A stretch of DNA of 30,768 nucleotides from a virus: IMG/VR virus record IMGVR_UViG_3300005613_003190, positions 1-30,768 of that record. One strand, written 5' to 3'. The translations under genes and the position numbers were made by a program. Below are positions 1-12,557 of the stretch, in pieces. The notes beneath the pieces were generated by a model that was not told the DNA's origin, did no database searches, and saw only the letters and a program-made list of their open reading frames with translations. Position 1 is the stretch's first letter. The number at the start of each line of letters is the position of its first letter.

Positions 1-1527
1 TTCAAGTATATTAATATTTGGTCCGCGAATCTCTATATCTTCCGACTTAGCAGAAATAATCAATTGTCTCTTTTCAAGATCTGGATCTATCTTCTCATCT
101 GCGTTCCTTAGCCAATTCTTAAAAAACTTTTCTGGATAATGATATCGCGTCCATGCAGACCAATACGCCATCTTAGCATATGCTACGGCATGAGATTTGT
201 TGAACGAGTATCTAGCAGACTTTTCAATCATATCAAAAATGTCTTCAGCTTTGGAGTTATCTATTCTATTTTTGACACATCCTTCAAGAAACTTGCCACG
301 CACCTCTTTCATGAGATCTGCTTTTTTCTTACCAATAGCCTTACGAAGATTGTCCGCTTCTTTTAGATCAAATCCGGCCATCCTTACCGCAATTTCCATT
401 GCCTGTTCCTGGTAAACAATAACTCCGTATGTTTCTTTTAATAGATCATCAATACTTTCATGCAGGCTTGGAATTTCTTCCTGACCATGCTTTCTGTCAA
501 CAAAGTGTTGAGTCATTGTTTTACCATTATATACTGCCTTTAAGCAGTTATGAACTATAAAATTACCAGCTATAAAGCTATGATGAGGTTCAGCCATTGA
601 TATATCATAGGTATCTTTTATTCCAACAGATTCTTTGCCCATATATGTTACCCACTCAATGTCATTTGATTCTGGTAATATATATTGCAGTCTATTAGCT
701 ATAATTTGATCGTTTATTATAAGATGCTTTATTTCTTTTCTATGGCAGTTTGGGCATAGAAATACTAAATTATTTTTTGAATTATCAGTATGTCTGTTTC
801 CAGATATATGATGAACATCAAGTGTTGTTTCACACCATCCGCACATTACGCATTTTTCTATGTAGGATTTATAGCATATTTCATGAAAGTATCTTGTTCC
901 AGAAACATTTCTATGTCTCGGTCCATTTTTTACATACCTATTTGAGATAGTTTCGTTTCGTATATCTCTATTATTTTGCTTTTTAAATCCAGCAATTCTA
1001 TCACCAATTTTTAGATCTTTTAGTGCAACCCATTCTAAATTTGATGTAAATAACTCATGATCATCAGTACATTCTAAATCATACCATGCCGGATGACAAT
1101 CTCTATTATCTGCCTGACCCATGGAATACTTGCGTACTTTTACAGAAAAGCATTCCTTTTGACCGCTATAAAATATATCTAACACCCTATTGTCGATGAT
1201 GGATAGATTACTTTCATCTAATGAATAAACGCTTGTGATTTTTTTATCATTCAAGTCTCTTATTTTTATTCTTTTGATTCTATTTTTTTTGTCTTTGTGT
1301 AAATATTTTTTTACTGTGACATATGTGTCTCCAGAAATACATCCGGGGCGAATAATACTGATTAGAGCCGCCAGTTCGGTCATATTTTCTGGCTTTAATT
1401 TTTGACACCAAGTCTTACCAAGATGACTTTCAATCTGAAAGCATCCCTTGACTCTTCCCTCTCCAATCATCTTCCAGACATCAATATCATTTTCTGGAAC
1501 GTTAGTTATATCAATCTGTGAATGCAT
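1..1527 (-). CDS. dnaE: DNA polymerase III alpha, C-terminal part (split DnaE), intein-containing, 3' end off window
   Basis: C-terminal half of a bacterial-type replicative polymerase, open to the left edge. The reading starts at ATG 1527 with an unusual beginning for a gene: the first residues match the linker and finger segment of DnaE (GCFQIES, like the family's VFQLES), followed by the fingers motif ending IIRPG at residues 54-62. An intein follows (residues 63-327), and the extein resumes with CLKAVYNGKTM, then DRKHG, YQEQAM and SFNKSHAVAYA, all typical of DnaE. The catalytic aspartates are not here; they lie in the separate upstream gene at 2184-4154. The start overlaps the stop of the exonuclease gene by 17 nt. 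No segment seems to be lost between the two polymerase parts. Family identity is confident; that the two halves work together is inference. Confidence 0.92.
   Translation of the reverse strand, partial: MHSQIDITNVPENDIDVWKMIGEGRVKGCFQIESHLGKTWCQKLKPENMTELAALISIIRPGCISGDTYVTVKKYLHKDKKNRIKRIKIRDLNDKKITSVYSLDESNLSIIDNRVLDIFYSGQKECFSVKVRKYSMGQADNRDCHPAWYDLECTDDHELFTSNLEWVALKDLKIGDRIAGFKKQNNRDIRNETISNRYVKNGPRHRNVSGTRYFHEICYKSYIEKCVMCGWCETTLDVHHISGNRHTDNSKNNLVFLCPNCHRKEIKHLIINDQIIANRLQYILPESNDIEWVTYMGKESVGIKDTYDISMAEPHHSFIAGNFIVHNCLKAVYNGKTMTQHFVDRKHGQEEIPSLHESIDDLLKETYGVIVYQEQAMEIAVRMAGFDLKEADNLRKAIGKKKADLMKEVRGKFLEGCVKNRIDNSKAEDIFDMIEKSARYSFNKSHAVAYAKMAYWSAWTRYHYPEKFFKNWLRNADEKIDPDLEKRQLIISAKSEDIEIRGPNINILE
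547..1341 (-). mobile_element. DnaE intein with HNH homing endonuclease (265 aa)
   Basis: Protein-splicing element inside dnaE-C. It begins with Cys (CISGDTYVTV) directly after the extein RPG and ends FIVHN, followed by Cys+1, so it carries canonical class 1 splice residues. Block B is visible as ECTDDHELF at about residues 90-98, and block F as DTYDISMAEPHHSF at about 243-256. Between them, at about residues 164-200, lies an HNH nuclease with zinc-binding CxxC pairs (CVMCGWC, DVHH, CPNCH). Removing it joins RPG to CLKAVYNG and restores a continuous finger domain. The site differs from the cyanobacterial split-DnaE intein site, which is empty here (YSFNKSH). The nuclease motifs look intact. 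Confidence 0.93.
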
Positions 1528-2197
1528 TTTTAAAATTCTTTCTACTTGCTGTAGTCCTCAACATCCTCATGGTTCTACAAAACAACTCAGCGGTCATTAT
1601 AACGTCCGACATAGCATCATGTGCCCTACCAGCAGAATAACCCATATAACCTCTAACTAGATTATCAGCAGATAGAGAATTGACATCTTTATTGTTTTCA
1701 AAAAGGGCAAACATGAAATCCAATAAATCTATACTGTGGATACGATTGAAAAGACTTTGCTCTCCTCTTTTTTCATCTATCGGGCCAAACTTATATGGTT
1801 TTTGTGTACATAGTCTATTCACTATAATTGAATCAAAACCCTTTATGTTGTAACCAACACTGATTGGGGCACCCCAATTTCCACCCTTGAAATTATATTG
1901 ATCAACGTAGTCTGTGAAGTTCTTCCAAACAGATTCGGTTGATGGTGCATCCTGAAGTATCTCCTCTGTCTTACCATGGACTGCCACCGCACCATCTTCA
2001 AGTGGGTCTATACCAAGCTTTTTACACTTAGCTTTATCAAATTCTGGCTTCATTAGGGATTGAAATTCTGATCCCTCTTTAATTTCTAGCTTCCTACCGT
2101 GAATTGCAATTGCGGCAATCTGTACTGGTTGAGTAGAATGCGGGTTAGCACTTGTTGTTTCAAAGTCATATACAATAAAATCTCTATAGTTCATCAT
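1511..2197 (-). CDS. DnaQ-like DEDDh 3'-5' exonuclease
   Basis: Probable proofreading exonuclease of 228 aa. The DEDDh motifs are in order: ExoI YDFETT at residues 9-14 (Asp10 and Glu12), ExoII GYNIKGFDS near the middle, and ExoIII GRAHDAMSD toward the C-terminus with the His-Asp pair. The gene sits exactly between the two halves of the polymerase. Its ATG overlaps the end of dnaE-N by 14 nt and its end overlaps the start of dnaE-C by 17 nt. An RBS-like GAGGT lies just before the tandem ATGATG. In PolC enzymes an exonuclease domain is built into the polymerase chain; here it is a separate gene in the seam. Acting as the epsilon-like proofreading subunit for this polymerase is inferred from position and family. 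Confidence 0.9.
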   Translation of the reverse strand: MMNYRDFIVYDFETTSANPHSTQPVQIAAIAIHGRKLEIKEGSEFQSLMKPEFDKAKCKKLGIDPLEDGAVAVHGKTEEILQDAPSTESVWKNFTDYVDQYNFKGGNWGAPISVGYNIKGFDSIIVNRLCTQKPYKFGPIDEKRGEQSLFNRIHSIDLLDFMFALFENNKDVNSLSADNLVRGYMGYSAGRAHDAMSDVIMTAELFCRTMRMLRTTASRKNFKNAFTD

Positions 2198-4154
2198 TTA
2201 CCTCATGTATAGTTTCGGATATCTTCTTGAGAAGATTCACGCCCAAAATGTCAAATTTTACACACCCAATTGCTTCAAGATCTCCCATTTCCATTCCAGC
2301 AATTTGCTCTGAACTCCTAGAAGATTTTACCATAGGACAGACTTCTGACAAGTCATCTGATGTAATAACCACTCCAGCAGCATGTTTTCCTTGTGTTTTA
2401 AAGATTCCCTCCATTCTCATAGCCTGCTCAAATATCTTTGCGTATTCGCCTTTTAGGCTCCCATCTTCGTCAAGCCAGCAATAGTCAATGAGGGCATTTT
2501 TGTCATTCTCCAGTGCCCACCTAATTACTGATGGATTATCCATTTCTTCAAGAAGATCAGAAATAGCGGCTTCGTTTGGAATCTTTTCTGTAATCAAATT
2601 CATCTGATCAAAACCACATGATTCATTCACTCTTAATACTTCTTTAAGAATAGACCTTCCGGCAAGTTTACCAAATGTTAACATCTGGCATACTCTAGAT
2701 TCACCATACTTGTTTTTTAGATAATCAATAACTTGATCTCTATAATCTGGTGGAAAGTCAACATCAATATCTGGAAGAGAAATATGATCCTCTGTATTGC
2801 GACCTTCATTGTAAAATCTTTCAAAAAGCAGACCATATTCTATTGGATCAATAAGTGTAATGCCGGTTAGATAGCATACCAGAGAACCGCCGCCTGAACC
2901 GCGAGCGGGTCCAACCAAACATCCCATATTTCTAAAGTGATTTACATAATCTTGAACTATAAGGAAGTATCCAGAAAGATTGGCTTTGTTAATAACTTCC
3001 AACTCCTTCAAAACTCTATCTTTATATACATCTTGATTTTCCTTGGGTATGCGGTCTTTAATGATCTTTCTCCATCCATCTCTGCAAAGCTGCTTTAAGT
3101 ATTCATCTTCAGAGCCTCCGTTCGGCGTTTCAAATGCTGGCAGTTTTGGTTTTGACAGAATATCTATATCATCAATTAGAGCGGCAATCTGAGTGAGATT
3201 GTAGTATAGATTATTATCATATTCCTTAACTAGTAGATCTGAGCTTTTAATATAGTAGTTACTACTACGAATAAATCTTAGGGAGTCAAGGTCTTTCTTC
3301 TCAGATATTTTTTGATCTAGCTTTTTCATAGTGGTTTTTAGCTTGGTGCATATGAGAACCCTATGATCAACAGCATCTTTCTTTTCTGGATAATAAGAAG
3401 CAGTGTCTGGAATGCATATAGTATGTTCTGGATCTATAGAATAAATAATATCTCTTAATGTTTTGGTTATAGGATATGTTTCATGATCTGTATTGTTCAC
3501 TTCAAGAAAATAGTTAGCAAATATTGATTCTGGAATGCATATAGTATGTTCTGGATCTATAGAATAAATAATATCTCTTAATGTTTTGGTTATAGGATAT
3601 GTTTCATGATCTGTATTGTTCACTTCAAGAAAATAGTTAGCAAATATTGATCGCATATTTTCTACATACTTATTAGCTTTCACTTCATAATCTTGTGTAA
3701 GACAATCTTCAATCAGATCGCTATCAAGTGAATCAAAAACACACTCCTCATCGTTGAATAATGAACGATAAAATCTACTTCCAACATATCCATCAATACA
3801 CACAAAATCATGCGGAGTTATATTATCAATAAAGGATTGAAAGTTTATTTTAGGAGTATCTTTGTAATTTTCTGGACTATTAGATATTGAAATGATTTTA
3901 AGAAGCTCTGTCCATGCGTGATTGTTCTTGCATAGAATAGTGATTCTTGAATCATCATCAAATATAATTTCGCAACCAATGATTGGCTTGATGGATTCTT
4001 TTTTGCAAGCCTGTATAAAATTAACACAGCCACTAATAGTGGCTATGTCTGTGATACCAGCATAAGAATATCCAGCATCCTTACAGGTTTTTGCTATCTG
4101 CCTGGATTTAGAAGTTGATGATAATAGTGAATAGTGACTATGATTTCTCAGCAT
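2184..4154 (-). CDS. dnaE: DNA polymerase III alpha, N-terminal part (split DnaE, PHP and palm)
   Basis: N-terminal 656 aa of a DnaE-type polymerase. A PHP domain begins with HSHYSLL (residues 5-11) and runs to about residue 300. The palm follows, with GPARGSGGGSLV (415-426), PDIDVDF (461-467, holding the two metal-binding Asp residues) and KFDILGV (633-639, the third catalytic Asp). The gene stops shortly after, at a TAG just before the family's next conserved block, which is encoded separately at 1-1527. Residues 169-209 are repeated exactly as 210-250 by a 123-bp tandem duplication in the C-terminal PHP region; without it the part would be 615 aa. The start overlaps the HNH gene by 7 nt. 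Catalytic residues appear intact, but the effect of the duplication on folding is unknown. Confidence 0.93.
   Translation of the reverse strand: MLRNHSHYSLLSSTSKSRQIAKTCKDAGYSYAGITDIATISGCVNFIQACKKESIKPIIGCEIIFDDDSRITILCKNNHAWTELLKIISISNSPENYKDTPKINFQSFIDNITPHDFVCIDGYVGSRFYRSLFNDEECVFDSLDSDLIEDCLTQDYEVKANKYVENMRSIFANYFLEVNNTDHETYPITKTLRDIIYSIDPEHTICIPESIFANYFLEVNNTDHETYPITKTLRDIIYSIDPEHTICIPDTASYYPEKKDAVDHRVLICTKLKTTMKKLDQKISEKKDLDSLRFIRSSNYYIKSSDLLVKEYDNNLYYNLTQIAALIDDIDILSKPKLPAFETPNGGSEDEYLKQLCRDGWRKIIKDRIPKENQDVYKDRVLKELEVINKANLSGYFLIVQDYVNHFRNMGCLVGPARGSGGGSLVCYLTGITLIDPIEYGLLFERFYNEGRNTEDHISLPDIDVDFPPDYRDQVIDYLKNKYGESRVCQMLTFGKLAGRSILKEVLRVNESCGFDQMNLITEKIPNEAAISDLLEEMDNPSVIRWALENDKNALIDYCWLDEDGSLKGEYAKIFEQAMRMEGIFKTQGKHAAGVVITSDDLSEVCPMVKSSRSSEQIAGMEMGDLEAIGCVKFDILGVNLLKKISETIHEVNDEL
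3406..3651 (-). repeat. Perfect 2 x 123 bp in-frame tandem duplication
   Basis: Positions 3406-3528 and 3529-3651 are identical and directly adjacent; identity breaks at 3405/3528 on one side and 3529/3652 on the other. The unit is 41 codons and keeps the dnaE-N frame. The repeated peptide contains the PHP motif around ITKTLRD, which other DnaE proteins have once. Zero divergence means a very recent duplication or an assembly error. Confidence 0.98.
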
Positions 4155-4861
4155 TTTTTACCTTTAATTAAATTATCAATCGCCCATAATGGCTGTAGAT
4201 TTGTATAATTCCATGCGATGTATATTTCTTCCTCATTATTAAAATTAAATGATGAAAGAGGCTTGATATGATCTATGTGCCATTGTCCATAATTTTCCCA
4301 TGACATTCCTGACTGAAATTTACACTCAATATATTTCATGAAATCTTTTTTTTCAAGACCAATATATGAAAAAGTACTGTTTTTTTTTCTTATATACTTA
4401 TTGAATGAACTTCTTAAAGATTGAACTAGTCTATAAGATGGATTTTTAGATCTTGACTTTTTTTCACGTGCATTTCTTTTGTTCTTATATTCTACTGATG
4501 ATCTATATTTTTTCTTTTTTTCCTTAATGTCTTTTCTAGATTCATAAGCACGGTTTCTAGATAATATTGATTCTCTATTTTTATTATGATAATCTTTTTT
4601 CTCAATACATCTACATTTTTTACATTTAGACCTTAACCCATCCTTTTCACGTTTAGATTTATGAAAAAATTCTATAGTCGCTGGTAAATGTTCATTACAT
4701 CCATTACAAATTTTTAAAATGGAATCATTTGTATTAATATTTATTTTTATTGAGTTTCTACACTGTTTACATGTTGATTGAAAATAATTTCTACTAGTAT
4801 AAAAAAACTCATTAGTCTCTGGAAGAAGTTTTTGACATATCTTGCAGATTTTTTTATTCAT
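4148..4861 (-). CDS. Free-standing HNH homing-type endonuclease
   Basis: A 237-aa nuclease gene placed between the Fe-S nuclease gene and dnaE-N, overlapping both by 7-8 nt. The N-terminus has two zinc-ribbon-like CxxC pairs in tandem (CKIC...CKQC and CNGC...CKKC). A Lys/Arg-rich linker follows, then the HNH core near residues 190-235 (WHIDHIKPLSSF, then NLQPLWAIDNLIKG). This architecture is typical of phage homing endonucleases that sit between genes and cut related genomes lacking them. The coding sequence is richer in A and T runs than its neighbours, in line with mobility. No intron features were recognised around it. The target is probably one of the flanking genes in relatives (inference). 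Confidence 0.88.
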   Translation of the reverse strand: MNKKICKICQKLLPETNEFFYTSRNYFQSTCKQCRNSIKININTNDSILKICNGCNEHLPATIEFFHKSKREKDGLRSKCKKCRCIEKKDYHNKNRESILSRNRAYESRKDIKEKKKKYRSSVEYKNKRNAREKKSRSKNPSYRLVQSLRSSFNKYIRKKNSTFSYIGLEKKDFMKYIECKFQSGMSWENYGQWHIDHIKPLSSFNFNNEEEIYIAWNYTNLQPLWAIDNLIKGKKC

Positions 4862-5870
4862 TATTGTTTACGCCATCTATTTTACCGCCTCCACTTCCAT
4901 ATTTACCAAGTTTATTTAGATCTGCGTACATAGACACAACTTCGTCCATGCCTTTAGATCTTACCATATCATGAAAGAATTTGCAAGTGGTTTTTCCAGA
5001 ATCCTTGTACGGTTCTGAGAATTTGCATAACTTGGTGCATTTCCAGTGAGATTGGTCCTCAGAAAGCAATTTGGGTAGTTCTATAGATCGGATATATTCA
5101 AACTTAGCTTTAAGCATTTTTTCTGCTTTTTCATAATCCTCATCTGAGAAAACTATGTCAAAAATACCACCGTCGTTTACATAATAAATACTTGTATAAA
5201 AATCATGATTGGGGTACATATTTTTTAATGCATAGAAATAAAGTAGCAACTGCTTGTCAGAACATAAATCTTCGTATGTCTTTTCTCTGCCTGTTGCCCA
5301 GTTTAATCTCTTGCCAGACTTGTAGTCAAGAACTTGGTAGTATGAATCATCTTCTTTTACTATCAAGTCTATCGTTCCCTTTATTGCTAAGTTTCCAGAG
5401 AACTCTTTGCCATTAACATTGTAGTGGTATTCAGCCCAAGGTTTTTTTATCTCAATATCAAAGAAAAGCTCTGTAGCGTGAACGTTTTGATTTCTAGGAT
5501 CTAACGAACCATTATTATATGCCAATGCCTTGTATACCCAATCTATACAAGTTTTTAGATCCTTTGGCATTAAGTCTACATCATCTTCATGCTTCTTGTA
5601 GTATTCAAAACATATGTTGGTTACATATTCTATATCATCACATTCCGCAAATGTCAAGTCTTGTATATCGTCGTTTTTTAATTTTCGTTTCTTATTTAAT
5701 TGTGCTATTTTCTTATCTGCCAGCACTTGCATAGCCCTATGAAATACCGTTCCAAGGACCGCCTTTTTATTAGTCTTGTCTTTCATTCCAAGCACATATT
5801 GGAAAAAGTATTTCATTTCGCACATCTCTAGCGTGCCAATGCTAGAGGATCTATGGTAGCAAATAATCAT
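4854..5870 (-). CDS. Cas4/RecB-like PD-(D/E)XK nuclease with Fe-S cluster cysteines
   Basis: A 338-aa single-strand-type exonuclease of the PD-(D/E)XK superfamily. Core motifs are GTVFHRAM (His44), GTIDL (Asp168), LDYKSGK (Asp182 and Lys184) and a Gln at 207. Cys17 near the N-terminus and three C-terminal cysteines (278, 282, 296) match the four-Cys iron-sulfur arrangement of Cas4 and AddB nucleases. There is no helicase domain and no CRISPR locus nearby, so a CRISPR role is unlikely; processing of DNA ends for replication or recombination with the phage RecA is more plausible. The start overlaps the stop of the dNMP kinase gene by 4 nt (ATGA), so translation is probably coupled. Confidence 0.88.
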   Translation of the reverse strand: MIICYHRSSSIGTLEMCEMKYFFQYVLGMKDKTNKKAVLGTVFHRAMQVLADKKIAQLNKKRKLKNDDIQDLTFAECDDIEYVTNICFEYYKKHEDDVDLMPKDLKTCIDWVYKALAYNNGSLDPRNQNVHATELFFDIEIKKPWAEYHYNVNGKEFSGNLAIKGTIDLIVKEDDSYYQVLDYKSGKRLNWATGREKTYEDLCSDKQLLLYFYALKNMYPNHDFYTSIYYVNDGGIFDIVFSDEDYEKAEKMLKAKFEYIRSIELPKLLSEDQSHWKCTKLCKFSEPYKDSGKTTCKFFHDMVRSKGMDEVVSMYADLNKLGKYGSGGGKIDGVNNNE

Positions 5871-6658
5871 TTTATTGATACGGTATACTTACCGACCTCT
5901 CTTAGTTTTTTGGTAACGTTTAAATTAACTAGCATGGACAAAAACTCCGCACAAGACTCTTCTATATTCATATGCTCATTGTTAATAACTCCATCAAATC
6001 CATCATATTTGTCAGCATCAACTTCACTGGCATGTTTACTAGCATATGGATTTCTAGTAAGTCTAATAACCTTCCCGCCCCTTTCTTGAACCGCTTTTAC
6101 TTCATTCATGAATCGGCAGTCTGCAATAATCGCAATATCTGGACTATCCTCTTCTATTCTCTTAAAACAATTTTCTAGCCATATAGGCTCATACATTTTA
6201 CGCATAATTTCGGTGCCAAAAAATTGCATAAATTCACGCGATGTCATTGGTCCAATTGTTTTATCCATACCGGGCATATTTTCCCATCTAAGATGTTCTT
6301 GAACTGTATTCTTTTGCTCATCATTTCCGTATACACATTCTGGAGGAATATTGAATAGCATAGTGCAAATTTCCTTCAGAGAATCGGCAAAGTTATAACA
6401 TCTTATAAGCGGCCAAATTCTCCTTGAGGCATATTGATAAAACTCATCATTTTTTTGTTGCAAGTCCAAAACCCCCATTTCCTCAAACTCTTTTCCGTTT
6501 TCATCATGAAACGTACAATTGACAACAAGCTCTCCTATCGGTGAGATGAAAAACTTTTCTATAACATCATGTCTTTTCATTTCATGACCATGAAGATAAT
6601 TTGATAATGTTGTCTTTCCAGATTGTTGCTTGCCCGAAATTGCCACAATTTTAGTCAT
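5867..6658 (-). CDS. Deoxynucleoside monophosphate kinase (T4 gp1-like)
   Basis: P-loop kinase of 263 aa that would phosphorylate dNMPs to dNDPs for phage DNA synthesis. The Walker A motif GKQQSGKTT is at residues 9-17. Further signatures of the phage dNMP kinase family are FADSLKE, the block SREFMQFFGTEIMR, IIADCRFMNEV and RLTRNPY. The length is near the usual 220-260 aa. The start forms a TGATG junction with the stop of the primase gene, with AAGGAAAA upstream as RBS. It fits with RNR and MazG elsewhere in the window as part of nucleotide supply. Confidence 0.9.
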   Translation of the reverse strand: MTKIVAISGKQQSGKTTLSNYLHGHEMKRHDVIEKFFISPIGELVVNCTFHDENGKEFEEMGVLDLQQKNDEFYQYASRRIWPLIRCYNFADSLKEICTMLFNIPPECVYGNDEQKNTVQEHLRWENMPGMDKTIGPMTSREFMQFFGTEIMRKMYEPIWLENCFKRIEEDSPDIAIIADCRFMNEVKAVQERGGKVIRLTRNPYASKHASEVDADKYDGFDGVINNEHMNIEESCAEFLSMLVNLNVTKKLREVGKYTVSIK

Positions 6659-7668
6659 CAGTATTTTCCTTCAATTTGAGGTTTTATAATATTGTTAATT
6701 TCATCAATTGACATATCGCCTATATCATTCTTTGGTAGCTTTACAGTGTAGATATTAAACAGGTATTTTAGTCTTTCAGTTATATCTTTGGTGCAGATAT
6801 TTCCAGCATCATCATTATCAGCCATGATTACAATATTGGAAACGCCCGTCTTTTGAATTAAGAATTCTTGTGAGTCACTTATCTTTGATCCAAACATCCC
6901 TACGGCGTTATATATTCCAGCCTCCCATAAGCGAATCACATCTCCCTGTCCTTCTACAAGTATTATAGTCTCAGCCCTTCTTATATGCTCTATTGCTTTT
7001 CCATAATTGTACAAAAAATTGGACTTATTAAATCCCCTTTGGTTTATCCATTTTCTAGGACTGTCAGATATTGTTCTTCCAGTACACCCAACCATAAACT
7101 CATTATTTTCATCATACACTGGAAAGACTACACGCTGATACATTTGACTTTTAGGGTTTGTGCAAAGTCCAACATCAAATTCATCTAAAATCTTTTCAGA
7201 AAATCCCCTATTGATATAAAAGCTGGCTGGAAATTGCAGGCGGCTGCGAACAATCTCTCTTTTTATTTTACAGCCATTTTCTTTTAATGTTTTTTTGTTT
7301 TGCAGTTTTATGAGTTTATCAAAAACATCATTCTTTATTGTATTTATACTATCGCTATCAATCAGAACATCTGCACAAAAGCTATTGCAGAATTTTATTA
7401 CTTCTGGAAATGCAATTTCTTTATCGTGCTTCTTTTCCAAAAGCATCCATACTAATGAGATGATATCTTTCCCAGGCTTATCGTTGTGGCAACCTTTAGT
7501 ATTGCAAAACCATTTGCCATAATGTTCTTCGTTGTATTCGTCAATGTTAATATTGAACGCAGTTATATTATCGCCTTCATGTATTGGGCAACTGCTTATC
7601 AATAAGTTATTTGATTCGTAATAATCATGAATACCGAAAAAATCAAAAAGATCAAAAATCTTCTTCAT
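6658..7668 (-). CDS. DnaG-like DNA primase
   Basis: Primase of 336 aa with an N-terminal CHC2-type zinc finger (Cys27-x2-His30, Cys55-x4-Cys60) and a C-terminal TOPRIM domain (LVEGQGDV and MADNDDAG hold the metal-binding acidic residues). It lacks the C-terminal helicase-binding domain of full-length bacterial DnaG, common in phage versions. An in-frame ATG exists at 7731, but that extension lies over the helicase C-terminus and is not primase-like. The ATG at 7668 has a GAAGG RBS eight bases upstream and leads directly into the zinc finger domain. It overlaps the helicase gene by 17 nt. Confidence 0.9.
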   Translation of the reverse strand: MKKIFDLFDFFGIHDYYESNNLLISSCPIHEGDNITAFNINIDEYNEEHYGKWFCNTKGCHNDKPGKDIISLVWMLLEKKHDKEIAFPEVIKFCNSFCADVLIDSDSINTIKNDVFDKLIKLQNKKTLKENGCKIKREIVRSRLQFPASFYINRGFSEKILDEFDVGLCTNPKSQMYQRVVFPVYDENNEFMVGCTGRTISDSPRKWINQRGFNKSNFLYNYGKAIEHIRRAETIILVEGQGDVIRLWEAGIYNAVGMFGSKISDSQEFLIQKTGVSNIVIMADNDDAGNICTKDITERLKYLFNIYTVKLPKNDIGDMSIDEINNIIKPQIEGKY

Positions 7669-9133
7669 CAGTTTGGCCTTCAGTATCAATGTCTGCTTGA
7701 TCTGAAAATCCCTGTTGATTACCGTGCTCATTTCTCTTTATGCTCCTAATAGTGCCAAGCTCTCTGATCTTAGCGTACTGACCATCCATTTGAAGGCATA
7801 TGTAGCCTTCATCTTCAATGCCTGGGCCGTGCCTAGATACAATTGGAATTAGCTTCTTATTACCACAGGTTATCCCGTCTGTCAATCTTTCTTCTTCCGT
7901 TTTATCTTTAAAGATAGAAAAGCTGGTACACAGCCATACAAGTCTGTCTGAACCGCTGACAACATCTGTACTCTCTTTAGTTATGCCATCACGATTAAGC
8001 TGAACAAATGACAAACAGGGGCAATCATTTTCTACGCAGAAGTTATGCAGTGCAGTAATCTGAAATCCCAGGACTTGAAACTCTGCAAGATTGTTGTTTA
8101 TACTATTAGATGTCATTAGCTTTAAGTAGTCATAAATAATCAAGCAATCATTAAGTACTCCGTTTTCATCATAACCGACTTTCTTTATTAGCCATCTTTT
8201 TGCGATAGAGAGAGTTTCTTCAAATGGTCTTCCGGCAATGCTTATATAGTCATATGGTATTTCCTTGATTACTTTTGCAACTTGAGAAACCTTATCTTTT
8301 TTATGATCGTCATTAAAGAAATTACCAGAAGCAATCTCGTTAATTTCAGTTTCGCTAAGATTTGCAAGAAGTCTATTTATATGATCTTCTTTACTCATTT
8401 CCGTATCAAGCATAAGGACCGGAATATTATGAGTTTTTGTTACATGTAGTGCCACATTATCAGCGAAAACACTCTTGCCAACTTTTGGCCTAGCCGCGAT
8501 TAGATCAACGCATTTACGACGAAGACCACCTCCGATTGCTTTATCAAATTCTGAAAGCCCTGTCGTGATTCCGATTGACTTTCCTGTATTATCCTGCAAG
8601 TGATCTAGATATGCATCAATATCATCTCCAATCAATTGAGGAGTCATTTCATCTTCCTTAATATAAGAAAGACATATATTTTGAATTGGTGATTCTGCTA
8701 CCGAGAGTATTTCGTTGATAGATTCATCGCCGGTTACTTTATTTAGATCGCTATATATTGTTCTTAGCTCTGATTGAACCTTTCGTGCAAATTCTAGCTT
8801 CTTTAGCTTTTTCGCATGTTCCCCTACATTATCTATATGTATAGGAGTATTCATAATTCCAGAGATATGCTTGAGAATGTCATTTCTCTCAACATACTCG
8901 TCTAGATCTAGACTTTTAGCAGAAGATAGAATATCTGCATATCCAGCCGTTTCTTTGTCTTTGAGTGCATGTGAGATGCACTTATATAGAACTTTATTTG
9001 CATCAAGAGTAAAACTATCCTCGCCAACAAAAAGCTCAACCTCAATTAGACTTTCTTGCCCATGCTGAAACAGTCCAGCAAGCACTGCGCGTTCAGAAGC
9101 AATATTTTGAAGATTACTCTCAATCTTTGACAT
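7652..9133 (-). CDS. DnaB-like replicative helicase
   Basis: RecA-fold replicative helicase of 493 aa. An N-terminal DnaB-type helical domain occupies about residues 1-150. The ATPase core follows, with Walker A ARPKVGKS (214-221), LMLDTEMS (the H1a region with catalytic Glu), a Walker B-like segment LIIYDYLKL and the H3-type SFVQLNRDG. The chosen start at 9133 makes a TGATG junction with the gene upstream and has AAGAGG six bases before it; an ATG at 9157 would add only eight residues. The last residues are strongly acidic and Gln-rich. Together with the primase downstream it forms the priming and unwinding pair. Confidence 0.92.
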   Translation of the reverse strand: MSKIESNLQNIASERAVLAGLFQHGQESLIEVELFVGEDSFTLDANKVLYKCISHALKDKETAGYADILSSAKSLDLDEYVERNDILKHISGIMNTPIHIDNVGEHAKKLKKLEFARKVQSELRTIYSDLNKVTGDESINEILSVAESPIQNICLSYIKEDEMTPQLIGDDIDAYLDHLQDNTGKSIGITTGLSEFDKAIGGGLRRKCVDLIAARPKVGKSVFADNVALHVTKTHNIPVLMLDTEMSKEDHINRLLANLSETEINEIASGNFFNDDHKKDKVSQVAKVIKEIPYDYISIAGRPFEETLSIAKRWLIKKVGYDENGVLNDCLIIYDYLKLMTSNSINNNLAEFQVLGFQITALHNFCVENDCPCLSFVQLNRDGITKESTDVVSGSDRLVWLCTSFSIFKDKTEEERLTDGITCGNKKLIPIVSRHGPGIEDEGYICLQMDGQYAKIRELGTIRSIKRNEHGNQQGFSDQADIDTEGQTDEEDF

Positions 9134-9630
9134 CAACGACCTCTTCTTTGAAGACACCTATCACATATGTATGTATCTCTAGCAAATAATGGATTTACCT
9201 CATTACTTGATCCGCACTCCGTACACTTTACAGACTTAGTTGAATAAGATTTTCTACTTCTATTTGAAGGTTTAACATTATCATTTATTTTGTCATATCC
9301 AGTTTCTTTTTCTGCTTCTGCAATAATATCTTGCATATTGTCAAATTTATTTTCACCATGTCTGTCCGTAACCTTTCTTGAAGGCTTATTAGACACTACG
9401 GAGAAGCCTTTGTCAACCTCTGTTTTTTTTGCAGTTTGTTTTTTAGTACTTTTTTTTATTGGTTTATTAGCAGTCAGCCCATCAAGTTTTTTCATTATGA
9501 TTGACAGGGCGGCTGCGGTATCGTTTTCTGGTGGATCAATACGCTCGCCAGAAAGCATAAAATATGCTTCTGAAACCTCGGACCAATCCCCATTGACTAG
9601 TGCGTTTCTAAGCAATGTTGCTATGTTCAT
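9133..9630 (-). CDS. Unknown protein with C-terminal zinc ribbon
   Basis: Not recognised as a named family. The 165-aa protein has a helical N-terminal part (residues 1-50), a Lys/Thr-rich linker (about 55-80), and a C-terminal zinc ribbon with CTEC and CDRC pairs about 18 residues apart. It begins with an ATGA overlap to the preceding gene and AGGAG RBS, and ends in a TGATG overlap with the helicase. Tight coupling to helicase and primase suggests a replication accessory or DNA-binding function, but that is inference. Confidence 0.8.
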   Translation of the reverse strand: MNIATLLRNALVNGDWSEVSEAYFMLSGERIDPPENDTAAALSIIMKKLDGLTANKPIKKSTKKQTAKKTEVDKGFSVVSNKPSRKVTDRHGENKFDNMQDIIAEAEKETGYDKINDNVKPSNRSRKSYSTKSVKCTECGSSNEVNPLFARDTYICDRCLQRRGR

Positions 9631-10118
9631 TTAAAACTCCTTGATTTTCCTAAATCTTGAAATAGGGTTACTTTCTTCTTTATGTCTTTTGTGGTTTCAA
9701 GCAATATCTGCATACTAGCATACAATCTTAATCGGCATTTTTCAATTGATTGTGCAAAAGAATTTTCAATCAATATAGATTTTTTTCTAATTTCTGCTGG
9801 TAGAAACTTATCGTATCTATCCCAATACTTAGCGTATAGAAGATTTAATGCTTCTACACACCAATTATACTGACTATATGCTAAGTCATGTTTTTTTTGT
9901 AGATTTCCAGCATAGTTCATTAAGGTAAGTGCATTCGCAAAACACTCGTCACTAGAAAGACTAAGTATGTCTTCATGCGGCATATTTACAATGTATTCGT
10001 AGTGGTCACTATCTTTGTATTCTATAATGTTATTTTCTTTACAGAATGAATCTATCCACTGCGTAAACTTTTCTAACGCCTCTATTGGTTGGCTGTCTGT
10101 AATATCAATTGCTTCCAT
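9627..10118 (-). CDS. Unknown helical protein in replication cluster
   Basis: A 163-aa protein with no family I recognise. It is predicted to be almost entirely alpha-helical, with Tyr/Trp-containing amphipathic stretches and no catalytic motif, membrane segment or signal peptide visible. The start overlaps the nuclease gene upstream by 37 nt; AGGAAAG lies just before the ATG. Its place between the recA/nuclease pair and the helicase suggests a recombination or helicase-loading accessory role; nothing in the sequence proves that. Confidence 0.75.
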   Translation of the reverse strand: MEAIDITDSQPIEALEKFTQWIDSFCKENNIIEYKDSDHYEYIVNMPHEDILSLSSDECFANALTLMNYAGNLQKKHDLAYSQYNWCVEALNLLYAKYWDRYDKFLPAEIRKKSILIENSFAQSIEKCRLRLYASMQILLETTKDIKKKVTLFQDLGKSRSFK

Positions 10119-10510
10119 TCTTCTTTCCTGTCAAAAGGTAATACTGCTATTTTGATGTTATTTATTTCACACCATTCAATTTTATCTAGATCTCTTTTTT
10201 TAGCATTTAGGAAATCCATTTTGTCTTTATGGAAAAAAGAACAATACTGATAATGCTGCCTTCCATGAGCTTCTATTATTAGCATCAGCTCTGGAATAAA
10301 AAAGTCGGCATACAATAGAGATGATCTACCAATCTTTTTTGAACCTGGAAGAGTAACCTCTTCGTAGACGGATAGGTTCGGAAAAAGATCTTTGATTATT
10401 TCTCTAGTTTTTGTATGTAGAGAAGATTTATTTTCAAGATATTTTCTACTCTTGTTTTTGGCAAAATTAAACTTATGTTCCCTTTGATCAAAACCAATCA
10501 CTCTAATCAT
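10082..10510 (-). CDS. Vsr/DUF559-like PD-(D/E)XK endonuclease
   Basis: Small nuclease of 142 aa. The core reads YADFFIPE, then LIIEAHGRQHYQY, then a Lys/Asp-rich helix (NAKKRDLDKIEWC) and a final strand IAVLPFD, the usual order in Vsr-like restriction-endonuclease folds: Asp, then Glu-x-x-Gly-x-x-His. It follows recA with an 8-nt overlap and runs 37 nt into the next gene. Related phage proteins include homing nucleases of the EDxHD type, one of which is known from a phage recA intron, so it could be a homing enzyme. The deep overlaps with both neighbours instead suggest a resident repair or recombination nuclease. Both readings remain open. Confidence 0.78.
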   Translation of the reverse strand: MIRVIGFDQREHKFNFAKNKSRKYLENKSSLHTKTREIIKDLFPNLSVYEEVTLPGSKKIGRSSLLYADFFIPELMLIIEAHGRQHYQYCSFFHKDKMDFLNAKKRDLDKIEWCEINNIKIAVLPFDRKEEWKQLILQTANQ

Positions 10511-12557
10511 CGGAAAGCATCTCTTTTACCTTAGCATGAATAGAACTAAAAATATCTTTTCTTTCCACTAAGAACTCGTATATCTTAGATTGTCCTTGAA
10601 ACTTCGGTGCTTCTTCAAATCCCTCAGTGCCAGTCAAGAATGGTATTGAGTACCAAGCACCAGCCTTTTCTATAATGCCAAAAGACTCAGCAAGTTCAAT
10701 AATCTCTTTTTCCTTATCAATACCTTTATTATACTTGATATAACTTATACACTCGGCACCAGATGCACCCATTGATGAACAACTAATTTTCCAATGAACC
10801 AGTTGTCCTATCTTCTTATTGTTTTCTTCCCATGGCTCAATTTTGGCTATATCAAGTCTAGTGTCTGCTTGGTATTGAACCATTACGCCACAGTCTGGAA
10901 TTTTTACTTTACCGTAACCAGATGTATTTGTAATATAATGAGTAATAATTAGTGCATTGATTTTGTTCTTTACGACTGTCTGTGCGTTCTTTTTAATCCA
11001 GTGAGATAGAAGTTTTGGTAAACTTGCACGTAATGAAGCAGAGGCACTTTCTTCAAGCTCTGCCCTTGGGATTAAAGACGAGCAAGAATCAATAACGAGA
11101 ACGGCACCGCAATTGTCTGGCCTTTTCATTAGACTTTCTGCAATATCTAGAAAATCTTCTGCTGCAAGAGACTCTCCATCATCTGGACTGTGGATAATTT
11201 GAATTTTATCAAGATCCAAACCTTCTATACCTACTAGATTGTAAGCCTTTAGTCGGCTTTCTCCGTCAATATAAATTACTGGCCTGCCCTCATCTTGTGC
11301 ATTTTTACATACTTGCAGACATGTGGTACTGTTGTGAGTAACAATAAAGTTGTTTGTTAGATATAGATGTTCATCATTATCTAGTTCTATACATCTGCAT
11401 TCTTCAGACCTTACTACTTCAACTTTTCTAATAGTCCTGAATAGACTTGTCTTGTTTCTTTTATTCGCAATTGTTTTTCTTGTTATTGAAAATAGTTTTG
11501 ATACATTATTGCCAGAAATATGAATTCTATAGGAAGGAAATTCTTTACCGTTGCACTTTGTTGTACGGTATTTAATTTTTCCAGTATATCCTAAAGATTG
11601 AATAACTTCAACAAAATCATGTGCCAGTTGTTCTGATACGGTAGTATATTCGGCACATTTTCCATTTTGGTTATAACCGTCAGTATCCATTAGTCCACGA
11701 ATAAGTTCATATCTAATACTAGTAGAGTTATATTTATACACTTCAGGAATAAACTTACTGTGCGAAGACATTCCAAGTAGTCCAAGATTGTTAAGGTCTT
11801 GAACCATTGAATTTCTATACTTTTGTCCGCTGGATAAACGGTACGATATGCCATTATCTGTAGTGGGCTTTAGCTCTAATCCTCTTTGGAGACATTCATG
11901 TCTGAACTCATCAAGTATTTCTTCATCAGTATTAGTAATAATTATAGATCTATTGGTCATTCCTCCATCTCCCAATAGACATCCAAGTATATATGGAACA
12001 ATAGGAACTTCATGCGTATTGAATTCTACTTCTTCTGTTAGTTGAATTTTAAATTTTGGCCTATCAGAATAAAATAATCCTACATCTAAAATTTCTCTTA
12101 ATGACAATACTTCTGTTTTTTCTTTTCCATGATAATTTATTCCGACTTTCCAAAGATGATCTATTCCGCATTCTGCGTATACACCATCATTGAAATGGAC
12201 TCTATATACATCCTTTTCTCCATTTAGATGTACTTTTTTTACGGTAGCTAATTTACCGTCAGGTGTACATACTTTATCACCTACACTTATTTCCCCCATT
12301 GATTTAGGACCATCGGGAGTATAAACAATAGCAGAAACTGGTTGTTCTTTACCAGTTTTAGGATCTCCAGATATGATAGTCCAACTACCTTCCAAAATGC
12401 CGCCATTAAGTGCTAGATCTAGTGCTGGGCTGACACTTACAGCCTTTAGATCTCTTTTAGCCTGAACAAGTTCTGATCCCTTAGAAACTACTTTACCGAA
12501 AGCCTTCTGTATTGCTTTATCTGTACTTAAATCAACTTTCTTTTTATCTTTAGCCAT
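10503..12557 (-). CDS. recA: RecA recombinase interrupted by an intein
   Basis: Precursor of 684 aa: N-extein 1-70, intein 71-409, C-extein 410-684. Splicing gives a 345-aa RecA, close to the bacterial length (about 350). Joining GDPKTGK to STTCLQ restores Walker A. The C-extein shows IYIDGESRL, the Walker B-like AVLVIDSCSSLIPR, a loop 2 region with IPDCGVMVQYQADTRLD, and FGIIEKAGAWYS, all characteristic of bacterial RecA more than T4 UvsX. It would catalyse strand exchange in phage recombination and repair. The start has AAGGA about ten bases upstream. The stop overlaps the small nuclease gene by 8 nt. RecA is inactive until the intein leaves, because the P-loop is interrupted. Confidence 0.95.
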   Translation of the reverse strand: MAKDKKKVDLSTDKAIQKAFGKVVSKGSELVQAKRDLKAVSVSPALDLALNGGILEGSWTIISGDPKTGKEQPVSAIVYTPDGPKSMGEISVGDKVCTPDGKLATVKKVHLNGEKDVYRVHFNDGVYAECGIDHLWKVGINYHGKEKTEVLSLREILDVGLFYSDRPKFKIQLTEEVEFNTHEVPIVPYILGCLLGDGGMTNRSIIITNTDEEILDEFRHECLQRGLELKPTTDNGISYRLSSGQKYRNSMVQDLNNLGLLGMSSHSKFIPEVYKYNSTSIRYELIRGLMDTDGYNQNGKCAEYTTVSEQLAHDFVEVIQSLGYTGKIKYRTTKCNGKEFPSYRIHISGNNVSKLFSITRKTIANKRNKTSLFRTIRKVEVVRSEECRCIELDNDEHLYLTNNFIVTHNSTTCLQVCKNAQDEGRPVIYIDGESRLKAYNLVGIEGLDLDKIQIIHSPDDGESLAAEDFLDIAESLMKRPDNCGAVLVIDSCSSLIPRAELEESASASLRASLPKLLSHWIKKNAQTVVKNKINALIITHYITNTSGYGKVKIPDCGVMVQYQADTRLDIAKIEPWEENNKKIGQLVHWKISCSSMGASGAECISYIKYNKGIDKEKEIIELAESFGIIEKAGAWYSIPFLTGTEGFEEAPKFQGQSKIYEFLVERKDIFSSIHAKVKEMLSDD
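11331..12347 (-). mobile_element. RecA P-loop intein (339 aa), class 3 signature, LAGLIDADG endonuclease
   Basis: The intein lies between Lys and Ser of Walker A. Its first residue is Glu (EQPVSAIVYTPDGP), not Cys, Ser or Thr. It ends VTHN before Ser+1. The noncontiguous Trp-Cys-Thr set that defines class 3 inteins is present: Trp66 in block B (GIDHLWKVG), Cys319 in block F (CRCIELDNDEHLYL) and Thr337 in block G. In that class the block F Cys makes the first attack on the N-terminal junction. Two LAGLIDADG motifs, ILGCLLGDGG (about 120-129) and LIRGLMDTDG (about 215-224), form a complete homing endonuclease. The class assignment comes from motif alignment by eye. Confidence 0.93.

Follow-up and report, generated by a model that had tools for sequence, protein, structure and literature searches.

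The window analysed here is a 30,768-base stretch, positions 1 to 30,768 of the virus record IMGVR_UViG_3300005613_003190 (IMG/VR). In it, the gene for the alpha subunit of DNA polymerase III (Pol III) is divided into two parts, DnaE-N and DnaE-C, and a gene for a DnaQ-like exonuclease lies in the seam. Judged from sequence, the three products probably constitute a Pol III alpha of two non-covalently associated chains, served by a proofreader of its own. The split is carried by a large uncultivated group of aquatic bacterial viruses. The genes are arranged on the minus strand in the order DnaE-N, exonuclease, DnaE-C, and the features of this region are as follows (aa, amino acids; nt, nucleotides):

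2184-4154, minus strand: DnaE-N, the PHP and palm/thumb half of Pol III alpha, 656 aa (Pfam PHP 8.8e-23, DNA_pol3_alpha 1.4e-71)
1511-2197, minus strand: DnaQ-like DEDDh 3'-5' exonuclease in the seam, 228 aa (Pfam RNase_T 4.8e-17)
1-1527, minus strand: DnaE-C, the fingers half of Pol III alpha, with an intein inside and cut by the window end (Pfam DNA_pol3_finger 2.8e-46, Intein_splicing, HNH)
2184-2197, minus strand: overlap of DnaE-N and the exonuclease gene, 14 nt; GAGG precedes the ATG of the exonuclease gene by a few nt
1511-1527, minus strand: overlap of the exonuclease gene and DnaE-C, 17 nt (from the coordinates of the open reading frames, ORFs)
547-1341, minus strand: complete HNH intein of 265 aa in DnaE-C, at RPG|C and not at the seam (Pfam Intein_splicing, HNH)
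3406-3651, minus strand: tandem duplication of 123 bp (41 aa) within DnaE-N, exact and in frame, present in the window only and absent from aligned relatives

These coordinates and Pfam domains agree with an earlier note on this DNA, which had described a split DnaE with an exonuclease gene between its parts and overlaps of 14-17 nt. The note was silent on the truncation of DnaE-C at the window end (in close relatives, full-length DnaE-C has 508-521 aa, about 515 aa), on the HNH intein and on the 123-bp duplication. DnaE-N ends 17 residues past the VKFDILGV motif, and DnaE-C starts just ahead of the GCFQIES/RPG block. When compared with PDB structures, the N profile matched residues 10-631 of Taq alpha and the C profile residues 643-1108 of Taq alpha or 584-1055 of E. 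coli alpha, leaving only about 11 residues of Taq alpha between the two matches. The profiles thus tile Taq alpha without loss of a conserved block, which bears out the impression of the note that nothing is missing, and they place the break at the palm/fingers linker of bacterial alpha (Taq ~632-642). The fingers, helix-hairpin-helix and OB regions are present downstream, in DnaE-C, and no profile match to a tau-binding C-terminal domain was obtained, the match ending at the OB fold (E. coli 1055). AlphaFold2 models of the two chains of an intein-free relative (locus L002), folded separately, reached mean predicted local distance difference test values of 89.7 (DnaE-N) and 89.1 (DnaE-C), and Pol III alpha structures were the first PDB match of both. 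The phage protein pair has a PHP domain followed by a palm with three aspartates, as expected of a DnaE-type enzyme, and differs from such an enzyme in not being a single continuous polypeptide.

Viral contigs were scanned with each of the three window proteins, and the loci obtained were classified with profiles. This search for the same gene order, which the earlier note had proposed for phage and metagenome proteins, revealed the DnaE-N/exonuclease/DnaE-C arrangement, broken at the same seam, in 91 distinct viral loci (the window included). Many of these are close kin (86 well-filled loci were reduced to 54 by thinning at 5% difference). The identity of DnaE-C among the split loci falls to about 41%, and the layout is therefore old. 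Elsewhere, N and C were found in one frame at the seam in 30 loci, and the seam was broken without an exonuclease inside in 3 loci. The overlap of the exonuclease gene with DnaE-C is kept in 65 of the 91 loci, and that of DnaE-N with the exonuclease gene in 17 of 89. In two loci of the marine group (L145, 7074-7301; L158, 7078-7323), dnaE-N and the exonuclease gene are separated by a small ORF (about 75-81 aa) in which a CDL motif occurs. Several deep-branching members outside the window's group (L044, L046, L047 and L061) carry an N-terminal extension of DnaE-C that contains a GLP stretch and the motif CGC-F.

All three genes are under purifying selection, with ratios of nonsynonymous to synonymous substitution rates (dN/dS) of 0.035-0.10, which are rough values, dS being near saturation. 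The three palm aspartates and the D, E, D, H and D residues of the exonuclease are present in 91 of 91 loci, and the fingers motifs are essentially invariant. The metal ligands of the PHP domain are degraded or lost in many of the same loci, which makes proofreading by PHP unlikely and a separate exonuclease plausible. Pairwise distances of the three proteins correlate (rho of 0.87 for N and C, 0.85 for C and the exonuclease, and 0.79 for N and the exonuclease; p = 0.0005 each): the genes co-diverge and are co-inherited. A sequencing error, named in the earlier note as an outcome that would speak against the split, is excluded by the 91 loci sharing it and by purifying selection on the three genes.

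Unsplit relatives were sought as well. Apart from one lineage (L068, L070 and L081) nested among the split phages, the continuous DnaEs found, from bacteria and other phages, did not exceed about 31% identity. The nearest isolate-phage DnaEs examined, those of Bacillus phage vB_BpsS-36 and of Mycobacterium and Corynebacterium phages, are continuous. No relative of the exonuclease was found in 84,980 GTDB genomes at the search sensitivity used, the window exonuclease had no match in INPHARED, and nothing in INPHARED was close to the window's proteins; therefore, this phage group appears to be without isolates. The exonuclease of locus L149 matched Bacteroides phages DAC16 and kin, which were set aside, no DnaE being detectable beside the exonuclease there.

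The split Pol III alpha is the only polymerase detected in these phages. In contigs of 85-142 kb with the layout, the RNase_T gene, the palm region and the fingers region each occur once (further broken by inteins in a few lineages in the case of palm and fingers). Pfam searches of these possibly incomplete contigs found no family A or B polymerase and no beta clamp, and no PolB was found in 18 contigs.

The tails of DnaE-N past the third catalytic aspartate motif measure 11-39 aa across the family (a single value of 381 aa, caused by a motif match in another protein of that locus, was left aside) and are therefore too short for the N-part of an intein. No intein block or intein half was found in these tails, as the earlier note had stated for the break in the window. 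Frameshifting, RNA splicing and a split intein were rejected as joining devices on the anatomy of the locus, and a homing endonuclease was rejected as the splitter, the seam gene being of the RNase_T/DEDDh type without an endonuclease domain. Inteins do occur elsewhere in the DnaE of the clade, some of them split; their sites are RPG|C, the GRGS motif and the cyanobacterial DnaE intein site, YS|FNKS. The RPG|C intein of the window has homologues of 33-64% identity at the same site in L055, L030, L037 and L046 and is absent in the window's closest relatives. The YS|FNKS site is occupied in L035, L061, L068 and L070, in some cases over two ORFs (split inteins in L035, L061 and L068), and split inteins are found at the GRGS site in L055 and L061.

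In trees of the N and C columns, all phages with the split and the exonuclease form one clade (SH-aLRT, a Shimodaira-Hasegawa-like approximate likelihood-ratio test, 100). Probably, the break arose once, in an ancestor of this clade, and has been kept since, save for one probable re-fusion. The seam of L079, placed at or near the base of the clade, is broken and holds an unidentified 226-aa ORF, and therefore the break may be older than the arrival of the exonuclease, although this order is tentative. Palm and fingers are joined in L068, L070 and L081, which are placed inside the split clade. In the genomes of L068 and L070, the exonuclease gene (its product scores 191 and 176 bits with the seam profile) is located away from dnaE. 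It lies beside the PD-DEXK gene, and downstream of it is an ORF of 157 aa that, by eye, looks like the sigma-like ORF found after dnaE-C in relatives. Since the exonuclease gene stays in its usual neighbourhood without dnaE, the seam-joined lineage is probably a re-fusion after dnaE moved rather than an unsplit ancestor.

Separate breaks at the same linker were found in other lineages, in L058 (with a 78-aa ORF in the seam) and L066 (7977-11949, with an uncharacterised 196-aa ORF). The latter break is recent, because L290 (516-3320), which shares 82% identity with L066 over DnaE-N, has an unbroken DnaE. In L066, DnaE-C is fused to a uracil-DNA glycosylase domain. A second break of DnaE, within the palm just before LPDIDVDF, is present in L045 (9883-10743), L051 (10252-11112) and L294 (3199-5568), and also in L068, L070 and L081 (from ~7719-7800 on), the pieces being about 7.5 kb apart in L081. 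The second of these pieces has a conserved head of ~90 aa and the first a short tail; these extensions are not intein-like and may be docking segments. We consider it fairly probable that an obligate multi-chain Pol III alpha is ancestral in this clade, with mostly two chains and the exonuclease, three polymerase chains where the palm is broken, and a partial re-fusion on one occasion, and that the palm/fingers linker has been broken recurrently, independently in at least two other phage lineages.

Because the break is old, shared and without protein splicing, it is most likely that several chains come together to form the working enzyme. The three genes would together encode one replicative enzyme of the phage, in which DnaE-N would supply the PHP, palm and thumb with the three catalytic aspartates, and DnaE-C the fingers, the helix-hairpin-helix region and the OB fold. 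The two chains would make a non-covalent contact across the palm/fingers interface, which is intramolecular in ordinary Pol III alpha, the break falling at what would be a flexible linker between these domains. The DEDDh exonuclease would act as an epsilon-like third subunit for proofreading, and the overlapping reading frames would allow the three chains to be made from one message in close succession; in the window, splicing of the DnaE-C intein would be needed first. From the sequences, we infer that the chains assemble into an active polymerase to which the exonuclease binds.

If the chains were joined covalently after all, by split-intein trans-splicing, frameshifting or RNA splicing, the product would be an ordinary one-chain alpha. 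This is very improbable: inteins abound in the clade, and some of those at other DnaE sites are split, but the short N tails hold no intein block, a whole exonuclease gene, sometimes with kilobases more, lies between the parts, and the reading frames differ. The exonuclease might instead be a passenger at a tolerant linker, engaged in DNA recycling or RNA turnover, with N and C alone constituting the polymerase. Such a role is compatible with the presence of other ORFs in the same seam (L079, 226 aa; L066, 196 aa; L058, 78 aa) and with the location of the exonuclease gene apart from dnaE in L068 and L070. We regard it as unlikely, however, as the exonuclease gene has no second RNase_T gene beside it in the phage contigs, keeps all catalytic residues, co-diverges with DnaE-C (0.85) and retains the same neighbour gene even where dnaE has moved. 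An artefact of sequencing or assembly, or the decay of a gene, could be suspected behind the split from the window's exact 123-bp duplication and its intein, both absent in the closest relatives. The chance of this is negligible, given that the split is common to the 91 loci, from many samples and on contigs up to 142 kb, with dN/dS far below 1; as the cause of the split itself, an artefact is refuted by these data. The duplication may be an assembly error, and it or the intein may be a feature of this one genome.

Several points weigh against an assembled two-chain enzyme with its own proofreader. The duplication, if real, might impair DnaE-N in the window itself. Tight coupling is not universal, since the parts are separated by other genes, up to several kb of them, in some relatives. 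The re-fusion is borderline, a tree with the split phages together without L068, L070 and L081 being just rejected (approximately unbiased test, p = 0.045). Finally, no beta-clamp motif was recognised (in a search by eye only) and the tau-binding C-terminal domain was not found, which leaves processivity unexplained.

The assembled enzyme favoured here resembles the DnaE-type Pol III alpha of bacteria such as E. coli and Taq, where epsilon is a separate protein, in domains, their order, catalytic residues and a separate DEDDh proofreader. It differs in having two chains, broken between palm and fingers, in the lack of a detected tau-binding domain and in an identity of about 30% at most. The cyanobacterial split DnaE (Ssp/Npu DnaE split intein) is likewise encoded by two genes, whereas the phage break lies about 180 residues earlier and is without an intein. 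Two reassembling chains without an intein are also known from the split family B polymerase gp43 of the Aeromonas T4-like phages 25 and 44RR and from nrdA of Aeh1: gp43A and gp43B of phage 25 co-purify with polymerase activity, and the split nrdA is functional (PMC2988022). Those splits, in the case of gp43 in another polymerase family, go with a homing endonuclease or with an insert that is not translated (PMC2988022), whereas here the seam holds a gene for an exonuclease of the proofreading type, and the split is ancient and extends through the clade. Group 2.2 jumbo phages have a minimal Pol III alpha that is split over distant genes, its catalytic core likewise lying in two phage proteins; by its description, this version lacks other Pol III domains and has a family B polymerase alongside (PMC7824862). 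The phages studied here, by contrast, have all regions from PHP to the OB fold, and no further polymerase was detected in them. A proofreading exonuclease physically linked to the polymerase gene is also known from PolC and some Bacteroidetes DnaE1, as a domain of one chain (PMC3919608). There it lies inside PHP or is N-terminal, while the phage exonuclease is a separate gene at the palm/fingers seam. No report of the DnaE-N/exonuclease/DnaE-C arrangement was found in the open-access literature, subscription journals and preprints being outside this search.

Split phage polymerases are thus already known, and the present arrangement is a new, ancient and widespread variant. Replicative polymerases are usually viewed as single catalytic chains, and an ancient, widely distributed phage group whose sole detected polymerase comes as two or three pieces, with the proofreader encoded in the break, is a natural setting in which to test palm-fingers cooperation and a source of ready-made split points for engineered polymerases. 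It also illustrates that essential enzymes can be broken and rejoined in phage genomes with no need of protein splicing. For annotation, either part alone resembles a truncated DnaE.

The split gene lies in a replication cluster, of which the following further members were identified in the window:

4854-5870, minus strand: PD-(D/E)XK nuclease, the conserved upstream neighbour of dnaE-N (Pfam and relatives)
6658-7731, minus strand: primase (Pfam)
7652-9157, minus strand: DnaB-like helicase (Pfam)

An endonuclease VII-like gene is present directly upstream of dnaE-N (4148-4861, minus strand), and likewise in L002. The same site holds a different ORF in L007 (5003-5986) and is empty in L003; it is likely an insertion hot spot. 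Further along the window, a RecA/UvsX-like gene (10503-12557, minus strand) is broken by an intein with a LAGLIDADG domain, and the region beside it (10082-10510) matches homing endonuclease families.
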